From Cyclobacteriaceae bacterium (lineage in GTDB: Bacteria > Bacteroidota > Bacteroidia > Cytophagales > Cyclobacteriaceae), in the NCBI GenBank assembly GCA_028284125.1, contig JANQSI010000023.1:62001-126000 (forward strand): a stretch of DNA of 64,000 nucleotides. Reading direction: 5' to 3'. The notes below the pieces were generated by a model. The model did no database searches, was not told the DNA's origin, and saw only the letters and a list, made by a program, of their open reading frames with translations. Below, piece after piece: positions 29,755-31,377 of this stretch (positions are counted from its first letter, which is position 1; each line of letters opens with the position of its first letter). The position numbers were made by a program, and so were the translations under genes.

Positions 29755-30306
29755 TTAGTTTATGATGTTATCGTTTTCTTGTTTTACAGCAAATCCTTCT
29801 TCTTCTAATTTGGAAAGGAAAAAAGCTAACCTGGTTTGCTCTTCATTCATCAAAGAGTCCATATTAGGTTCAAATTCTGAGAATTGTTCATGGGGAAATC
29901 TCTTACCCGGTTCATAATAATCTTTCCAGAAAAGGCACTCAACGATATCATTTCCACGATAATAGTATTTGAATTCCTCCGCCAGGCTTTCATCCACAAA
30001 GTTGATCATGTGACCTGAAAAGATGGGTTTCTTATTTTCAAAATAGAAATAGTCGTCTCGTTCGAAATGAGGTGTTCGAGTAATTCCGACAAGCTTTTGA
30101 ATTAATCCTTCCGACATATAAGCTCTGATTTTGTACGTAGAATCACCCTGAACAAAATCATCTTCAAGAATGGTGATTCGATGGTGATGGTCAATGGCCT
30201 TGACTTTATAGTCAATGGCTTCCACCAGTTTTTGATTTTCCTTTTTTATTTCTGGGCTACATGCAACTAAAAAAACAATAGCTACCAGGACGTATAAACT
30301 TCTCAT
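29755..30306 (-). CDS. Hypothetical lipoprotein
   Basis: 183 residues with a type II signal peptide and lipobox LVAC (Cys16). The mature part begins SPEIKKENQKLVEAIDYKV, then beta strands with an unusual density of acidic and aromatic residues. No family is recognised. The stop abuts the MazG-like start directly, so this is the first gene of the operon leading to the M1 peptidase. The promoter must lie in the long gap upstream (right side). Confidence 0.55.
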   Translation of the reverse strand: MRSLYVLVAIVFLVACSPEIKKENQKLVEAIDYKVKAIDHHHRITILEDDFVQGDSTYKIRAYMSEGLIQKLVGITRTPHFERDDYFYFENKKPIFSGHMINFVDESLAEEFKYYYRGNDIVECLFWKDYYEPGKRFPHEQFSEFEPNMDSLMNEEQTRLAFFLSKLEEEGFAVKQENDNIIN

Positions 30307-30510
30307 GTCAGGTTATTTTTTAGAAAAGTTAATGATTTCCTTAATTCTTCTTGTGATGTAAAATTGATTTAAGATCAATCAATATTAGGATTCAAGATAC
30401 TAGAGAAAGATTAAACCGAGTTTAATAATCTCTGTCATCCTGTAAAACAAGTTAATAGGGCCTGGTCGCTTGATTCTTATTCTTTATTGTAACAATTAAG
30501 GACAAAGACA

Positions 30511-30700
30511 TGGTTTACATACGCCCTCCAGGGTGAACCCAGAGGGACCGCACTGATCAGGTTCTAAACCTAATACTGACTTTCAATTTAAGATCTAAAC
30601 CTTTAATTTTGGTCAGTCGCTTGTATAAGCGCATTACGGATTTACCGTATGTAACCACAAAACAAAGATGGCAATACTGAAAGGTGTTGCTATTTTTTTT
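30511..30700 (+). ncRNA. Structured RNA with intrinsic terminator (ncRNA or riboswitch candidate)
   Basis: The gap from 30307 to about 30800 holds no protein gene. A 12-bp closing stem pairs 30511-30523 with 30646-30657, with one bulged base at 30516. Inside are CCCTC/GAGGG (524-528/542-546) capped by GGG-TGAA-CCC; ACTGATC/GGTCAGT (552-558/611-617) enclosing AGGTT/AACCT; and CGCTT-gtat-AAGCG (618-631). An alternative hairpin TACGG-attta-CCGTA (635-649) uses the same bases as the inner half of the closing stem. An intrinsic terminator follows: GGCAATAC (670-677), loop, GTGTTGCT (684-691), then ATTTTTTTT. The orientation is set by the T-run. No known RNA family is recognised. Confidence 0.65.
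30670..30700 (+). terminator. Intrinsic terminator of the structured RNA
   Basis: An 8-bp stem (two G-U pairs), GGCAATAC/GTGTTGCT, with loop TGAAAG, followed by eight T residues. It sits 159 bases before the DUF2911 start, so it ends a separate RNA or acts as the decision point of a riboswitch. Confidence 0.7.
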
Positions 30701-30802: not shown

Positions 30803-30862
30803 ATGAACAAAAGACATTCAATTGCGTGCAATTGGGTTCGAACTTTAAAACTAAACGTATGA
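30803..30862 (+). CDS. Possible 19-codon leader peptide upstream of DUF2911 gene
   Basis: ATG at 30803 opens a 19-codon frame (MNKRHSIACNWVRTLKLNV) whose TGA overlaps the DUF2911 ATG as ATGA (30859-30862). It contains a perfect hairpin CAATTGC-GT-GCAATTG at 30819-30834. A four-base overlap of this type often means translational coupling, but a frame this short can arise by chance. Confidence 0.3.
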   Translation: MNKRHSIACNWVRTLKLNV

Positions 30863-31377
30863 AATTAATGAGAACACTGACCATTTTAAGTATGAGCTTT
30901 CTGCTTGTTTTTGCAGTACAAGCTCAGCAAGATAAGAGCAAGAGACCAAGCCCTCCTGCAGAGGTAACAAAAGAGATAAACGGGAAAACTGTAACTGTCA
31001 ATTACAGTAAGCCTTCCAAAAGAGGTAGAGCTATCTTCGGCGAGCTCGTTTCTTACGGACAAGTATGGCGTACTGGTGCAAATGAATCCTCGTGGATTGA
31101 GTTTTCTGATGATGCGAAAGTTGAAGGTAAAAAAATTGCGGCTGGTAAGTATGGTCTGTTCACAATTCCTGGAGCAGATGAGTGGGTAATTATCTTTAAT
31201 AGTGTATCTGACAAATGGGGTGCATTCTCCTACAAAGAGGAAGATGATGTACTCAGAGTATCTGTTAAGCCTGGAAAAACGGATGGAGTTGTTGAAGTAT
31301 TCGATATCGGTATCGAAGATAATGGGGTTGTAACTATGGCTTGGGATGATACGAAAGTTTCATTTGAGGTAAAATAA
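30859..31377 (+). CDS. DUF2911 domain secreted protein
   Basis: 172 residues from ATG 30859, which opens a good signal peptide (MRTLTILSMSFLLVFAVQAQ); longer reading from a GTG upstream gives no signal peptide. The mature protein is one DUF2911 domain: VTVNYSKPSKRGRAIFGELVSYGQVWRTGANESSWIEFSDDAKVEGKKIAAGKYGLFTIP is its hallmark region. The family is common in Bacteroidetes, beta-rich, and of unknown function. It may be controlled by the structured RNA and leader ORF upstream. A convergent inverted-repeat terminator follows. Confidence 0.85.
   Translation: MKLMRTLTILSMSFLLVFAVQAQQDKSKRPSPPAEVTKEINGKTVTVNYSKPSKRGRAIFGELVSYGQVWRTGANESSWIEFSDDAKVEGKKIAAGKYGLFTIPGADEWVIIFNSVSDKWGAFSYKEEDDVLRVSVKPGKTDGVVEVFDIGIEDNGVVTMAWDDTKVSFEVK

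Follow-up and report, generated by a model that had tools for sequence, protein, structure and literature searches.

A dispersed structured RNA element in a Cyclobacteriaceae genome that is probably read from both strands and resembles a type I toxin-antitoxin module

What kind of gene occupies positions 30511-30700 of the 64,000-nucleotide stretch of Cyclobacteriaceae DNA analysed here (the window), and from which strand is it read? An initial annotation had placed a structured RNA in this gap, either a stand-alone plus-strand small RNA or a riboswitch, and several of its structural claims were borne out. The folding energy of the stretch lies 4.8 sd below that of dinucleotide-preserving shuffles, none of 200 of which equalled it, and we recovered the proposed closing stem of 11-12 bp (30512-30523 paired to 30645-30656, with a single bulged T) together with the internal hairpins that it encloses. 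Also present are a TACGG/CCGTA hairpin (30635-30649), which cannot form at the same time as the inner half of the closing stem, and an intrinsic terminator consisting of a hairpin and eight T (30664-30700). The claim that the RNA matches no known family also held: no Rfam covariance model reached its gathering score in the window, and the highest-scoring model there, at 23.6 bits against a gathering score of 45, is that of the Listeria small RNA sbrA (RF01489) within the gap, a partial match that rests on the terminator hairpin. A suggested likeness to cobalamin riboswitches was not borne out, as no cobalamin riboswitch was found among the seven Rfam matches at E up to 10 between positions 30300 and 31000. 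The gap does lie between the listed longer open reading frames, as the annotation had it, yet its minus strand carries a short open reading frame and a promoter-like box. The structured RNA itself is real; the idea of a single-copy plus-strand small RNA or riboswitch was abandoned, since the gap is one of seven scattered copies, within the same genome, of an undescribed structured RNA gene. Judged from its sequence, this element is probably read from both strands, and its layout, a tiny peptide paired with an antisense RNA, looks like that of a bacterial toxin-antitoxin module.

The copies were found by BLAST with 201 bases against 98 relatives, which returned six copies in full and part of a seventh in the own genome, as well as two copies in another genome of the same family (G056); covariance models confirmed the seven and the two. 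The nine copies are mutually 59-79% identical, and their tree has one strongly supported fork and does not group the two G056 copies together. Full-length matches were confined to the own genome and G056 across 195 relatives and across sets at the level of family (390 genomes), order (390) and class (395), which overlap and each include the own genome, and the nine congeners gave no full-length match. Among the 195 relatives, 45 genomes had a model match at E up to 0.1, the own genome and G056 included; the short matches in the 43 others (at most 39 bits) are taken as terminator-like, judged from their length of ~50-150 nt. Of 22 pattern matches in genome contigs, two are those of G056 and the other 20 had no full-length model match. 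The models behind the genome searches were plus-strand ones, and in the large sets between 6 and 12 candidates were scored for each genome, so distant relatives on the minus strand may have escaped. Phages, plasmids and viral contigs, queried by DNA, patterns or peptide, yielded no match, and the peptide copies tried matched no Pfam, NCBIfam or PHROGs model.

The nine copies allowed us to ask which helices coevolve. We named hand-chosen segments along the plus strand a (the 5' arm of the closing stem, P1), b, c and d, and compared the pairing energy of segments from the same copy with that of segments combined across copies. Out of 20,000 reassignments, none was as good as the own-copy combination for a-d or for c-d and 10 were as good for b-c; no coevolution was seen for a-b (13,779 as good). 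Overall, 29 pairs have changed on both sides, compared to at most 9 when the alignment is slid, and in the c-d hairpin this holds for five of six pairs. Covariation, which the initial annotation had proposed as a check, is thus seen for the closing stem as well as for the competing hairpin, among the dispersed copies; the same gap in relatives, which it had proposed to align, lacks the element in two of them (G003 and G004). In the resulting structure, arm a (30511-30523) and arm d (30645-30658, containing a GTG) form P1, as the 3' and the 5' arm, respectively, of a minus-strand RNA. They enclose the minus-strand hairpin P2 (30525-30546) and segment b (30548-30555, minus), which pairs with segment c (30634-30639) around hairpins P3 (30559-30571, minus), P4 (30575-30617, minus) and P5 (30618-30631, assigned to both RNAs). 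The competing c-d hairpin, TACGG-ATTTA-CCGTA, was assigned to the plus strand.

The two strands could be told apart by the pairs that depart from the standard, because an A.C on the plus strand is a G.U on the minus strand. In the model structure, the body helices (P1, P2, b-c, P3 and P4) depart in 23 A.C and 6 G.T cells on the plus strand and the terminator in 1 and 18 (Fisher 6e-7; 2e-6 without copy C13), cells that are non-independent and that include some P1/P2 A.C cells due to misalignment. Counted by pair columns, the body has 15 A.C and 5 G.T, the terminator 1 and 6 (Fisher 0.009). Two P4 columns that are absent from the model structure carry an edge T.G in eight of nine copies and A.C in three of nine; with both added, the body counts become 26 A.C and 14 G.T (binomial 0.08 alone, Fisher 1e-5 versus the terminator). 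By this measure the body helices lean towards minus and the terminator is plus-like. The body alone also folds better on the minus strand (8/9 copies by energy, 7/9 by z), with an RNAalifold energy of -44.0 compared to -30.5 on the plus strand; when the terminator is included the strands are level (mean -65.6 plus, -64.8 minus). Moreover, the outermost P1 pair is standard on the minus strand in all nine copies and on the plus strand in four. On these comparisons, the principal structured RNA probably comes from the minus strand.

Each strand carries a match to TAnnTTTG, the -7 promoter element of Bacteroidota, located four bases before a purine in all nine copies. The plus box (TAATTTTG, 30604-30611) lies within P4 and is the best of 372 positions (mean 5.67 of 6), and the minus box (CATCTTTG, 30663-30670; TATCTTTG in both G056 copies) is the second best (mean 5.33 of 6). 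In column shuffles the best score was reached by 5/300 and the second best by 0/300, in a setting where T-rich columns favour TAnnTTTG. Relative to the purine at 30658, the minus box begins at -12 and has its G at -5, and no clear -33 element accompanies it. The promoters of Flavobacterium johnsoniae, as described in PMC6847099, have nearly invariant T-12, A-11, T-8, T-7, T-6 and G-5, a spacing of 4-5 nt taken as diagnostic and a weak -33 element; the boxes of the element match this measured pattern and spacing. The minus box falls in the terminator region, and the DNA of the plus-strand terminator hairpin and T-run would double as spacer and A-tract upstream of this box.

From these boxes, two overlapping RNAs can be predicted. 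The minus-strand RNA (30510-30658, 149 nt) would be closed by P1, its first base pairing with its last in 9/9 predicted folds (z -4.4 to -8.4), and the sequence directly after P1 is T-rich (30/45 bases, background 36%). The plus-strand antisense RNA (30616-30700, ~85 nt) would start with a purine in all nine copies and comprise P5, the TACGG/CCGTA hairpin, an A-rich linker and the terminator (fold z -3.9 to -8.7); it would span the 5' end of the minus RNA and be complementary to its first 43 nt. Predicted folds of the plus RNA contain c-d in 9/9 copies and P5 in 7/9, and those of the minus RNA contain the inner part of a-d in 6/9 and c-d in 3/9 (C2b, C13 and G056b). Most simply, c-d would belong to the plus RNA, and a-d together with b-c to the minus RNA. 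The mutually exclusive helices, which had been likened to a switch, are indeed exclusive and covary; a single plus-strand switch is the part of that proposal that fared less well, as they are better read as the folds of two RNAs from opposite strands. A fold switch within the minus RNA, or a single switching RNA, is possible since c-d is also predicted in three of nine minus RNAs; these folds and the enlarged polarity count make the two-RNA reading slightly less likely.

We then considered whether the minus RNA encodes a peptide. In the window, a short minus-strand frame (30557-30658) begins with GTG at the predicted RNA 5' end and specifies 33 amino acids with a net charge of +9 (VVTYGKSVMRLYKRLTKIKGLDLKLKVSIRFRT), a candidate toxin-like cationic peptide. 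GTG (seven copies) or ATG (two copies) occupies the predicted minus RNA 5' end in 9/9 copies, and the frame is open for 33-36 codons in eight of them, seven by scripted scan and C13 via the GTG at its +1, which would give peptides in the size range of toxins (<~60 aa); in C1a the frame is broken by a stop after 13 codons. The eight predicted peptides have net charges of +5 to +11 and mean hydrophobicities of -0.17 to 0.00, with amphipathic moments only and no plainly hydrophobic, membrane-type character, a property that is also missing from the accepted system SymE. To score coding, we shuffled the columns of a 27-codon core with base pairs kept together and evaluated six frames. The minus frame has a substitution score of 1.74 versus -0.30 (sd 0.51; 0/500 pair-preserving shuffles as high) and a synonymous share of 0.36 versus 0.20 (3/500), its core is open in 9/9 rows (2/500), and 28 of 63 changes fall on third codon positions (610/20,000 permutations as high). 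A high score is also reached by plus frame 1 of the core (5/500, open in 8/9); its third positions coincide with those of the minus frame, and no conserved start was seen. A second plus-strand candidate, a frame over the terminator (MAILKGVAIFF...), has an ATG in only 4/9 copies and differing ends.

The minus RNAs may alternatively be multicopy noncoding structured RNAs, with or without a plus antisense RNA, whose open frame is due to chance; they would have a protein-binding or regulatory role, with their ends paired and perhaps with a change of fold between a-d and c-d. We regard this as unlikely, while noting that the polarity, promoter-box and fold evidence applies to it equally, that the third-position bias is modest, that a leaderless GTG start is unusual and that C1a is not open. 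What speaks for a peptide is that so few shuffles match the open core and the substitution pattern (2 and 0 of 500, respectively) and that a start codon stands at the predicted 5' end of every copy. The predicted mRNA would be leaderless, with GTG as its start in 7/9 copies; leaderless mRNAs make up 5.5% in F. psychrophilum, according to PMC9723704.

Another explanation, close to that of the initial annotation except in being multicopy, assigns the element to the plus strand: a stand-alone small RNA with its 3' end at the terminator, which alternates between closing stem and competing hairpin. Such an RNA would account for the near-fixed spacing of the plus terminator and for the coevolution of both a-d and c-d, and when the sequence is read on the plus strand alone, the closing stem is favoured in six copies and the hairpin in three, which is how a bistable RNA would behave. 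However, its body helices would contain more A.C than G.T departures, and a promoter for it, sought as a TTTG/TAnnTTTG pair within 60 bases on the upstream side of the closing stem, did not score above shuffles in 8/9 copies (most shuffles scored as high or higher; C2a was slightly above them). In addition, the similarity among the six own-genome copies aligned extends, by eye, beyond the T-run, into sequence that a plus RNA does not need. On the basis that no upstream promoter stands out and that similarity runs past the T-run, a plus RNA fits poorly, and we consider this explanation quite improbable.

The genomic setting bears on the remaining alternatives. The genes next to the copies vary: the window copy lies beside a DUF2911 gene (Pfam), and other copies lie at sites that we take to be a malate dehydrogenase/PPK1 gap, an FKBP gene, a LysR/EamA pair and a CBS/PPK2 region. 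In four of nine copies (C1a, C1b, C13 and G056b) no co-directional gene comes next downstream on the plus strand. The comparison with close relatives covered five of the six own-genome sites, all but C13, and found these five empty there: the element is missing from the DUF2911 gap in G003 and G004, from the malate dehydrogenase-PPK1 gap in G004 and G001 (with the gene pair itself retained), from the FKBP gap in G004 and G001, from the LysR-EamA gap in G004, and from the tandem site in G003 and G004. Given the differing neighbours and the empty sites, the element does not serve as leader to one particular gene, nor does the genus carry it throughout. At the LysR-EamA gap (the C2a site), G001 and G003 (L127 and L128) have a different small gene instead of the element, presumably a gamma-glutamylcyclotransferase gene. 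Two of the six own-genome sites are near polyphosphate-kinase-like genes (L016:6373-8472 and L013:7628-8551, which we take to be polyphosphate kinases 1 and 2), which may be chance.

Dispersed copies, empty sites in relatives and a patchy distribution could also mark a repeat or small mobile element at the level of DNA, devoid of RNA function, with single strands that happen to fold. This is very improbable: the end sequences vary, no target duplication was seen by eye, which also led us to reject an integron or transposon site, and the departures differ between body and terminator as expected of RNAs from two strands. As for a riboswitch or leader of DUF2911, which the initial annotation had entertained and for which an annotated-type ATG on the same strand ~158 bases downstream speaks, it is extremely improbable, because other copies have unrelated or no co-directional downstream genes and the DUF2911 genes of G003 and G004 lack the RNA. 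DUF2911 (30859-31374 in the window) is itself an expanded family of unknown function, with 11 matches in the own genome and 2 to 12 in each of nine congeners (E up to 1e-10). A retron was likewise rejected: a reverse transcriptase domain was matched once in the own genome, in a 649-aa frame (L112, G000:C6:168974-169432) on a contig without an element copy, and elsewhere once in G005, with none in G003, G004, G006, G007 or G056.

We come back to the type I toxin-antitoxin-like reading, in which the scattered copies are those of a module whose two RNAs overlap divergently, a possibility that we rate just below even. Its computed support consists of the multiple copies, the structural coevolution, the strand-specific helix departures, the conserved boxes and the open frame; the presence of more than one copy per genome, two of them in tandem, the single broken frame and the empty sites count toward it as well. 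The two transcripts, translation, toxicity and antisense control are what we infer, and for this reason we say that the module works like, not that it is, a type I toxin-antitoxin pair. In this model, the minus strand would give rise to a ~150-nt RNA starting at the purine four bases after its TAnnTTTG box, and the 5' end of this RNA, with the GTG or ATG of the 33-36-residue cationic peptide, would be locked to the 3' end in P1, so that the full-length RNA would be silent. From its own TAnnTTTG box, the plus strand would produce the ~85-nt antisense RNA, which would include the competing hairpin and stop at the intrinsic terminator; this RNA would capture any minus 5' end that has opened and thereby block its translation. 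More tentatively, and with doubt outweighing confidence, the element might be the first multicopy type I toxin-antitoxin-like family of Cytophagales: a ~190-bp palindrome-rich cassette in which two promoters face each other. One would drive a leaderless mRNA for a cationic peptide, with its two ends paired, and the other an antisense RNA that builds its hairpin from the very bases by which the mRNA is closed. If true, this would provide a compact module of two RNAs in nine natural variants, open to direct tests of each strand, and it would imply that riboswitch-like exclusive helices can arise from two overlapping RNAs and not from one switching RNA.

We know of no sequence relation between the element and Ibs-Sib, Ldr-Rdl or Hok-Sok; of these, the hok mRNA refolds. 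On the two-RNA reading, the element would share with all three a structured toxin mRNA as well as a small peptide frame whose 5' part is covered by an RNA from the opposite strand (as described in PMC4147584), and it differs in its candidate peptide, which is cationic and not clearly hydrophobic, in its predicted leaderless mRNA and in its Bacteroidota-type boxes. The title of a reference within PMC4147584 terms hok/sok, ldr/rdl and symE/symR divergently overlapping. Ibs-Sib resembles the element further in having several copies per genome, five in E. coli MG1655, where it was first noticed as a 140-nt repeat (PMC4147584). In many type I systems, structure keeps the full-length toxin mRNA inactive and the antisense RNA targets the opened form, as reported in PMC11228461, which also describes timP/timR, a toxin mRNA first annotated as noncoding, whose control involves alternative folds as well as an antisense RNA; by contrast, TimP is an enterobacterial inner-membrane protein and its antisense RNA binds the 5' UTR. 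Within Bacteroidota, FopS of Bacteroides is a multicopy RNA family as well (14 members with their own sigma-ABfr promoters; PMC11697453), yet it consists of a single-stranded 5' stretch and a terminator and is conserved in Bacteroidaceae. FopS was deposited in Rfam by its authors (PMC11697453); its described fold differs from that of the element, and no gathering-level Rfam match was obtained here. A literature search with most subscription journals outside its scope listed matches among whose titles and abstract starts no type I toxin-antitoxin system is described for Bacteroidota.

The surroundings of individual copies showed some further features. One G056 copy lies 80 bases past an interrupted gene in two frames (L018:58-1149), presumably a tyrosine recombinase gene. 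Among seven loci around other copies, the only gathering-level Rfam match was a Flavo-1 RNA (RF01705, 46.2 bits) at L018:4045-4113, 2.6 kb from one G056 copy; Flavo-1 is referred to in PMC9723704 as a motif of unclear function. Finally, the tandem copies of the own genome (L013:6287-7037) are 378 nt apart and are separated and flanked by a 38-nt repeat present three times (71-100% identical), two of these repeat copies containing CGGAAGAAACTTCCG.
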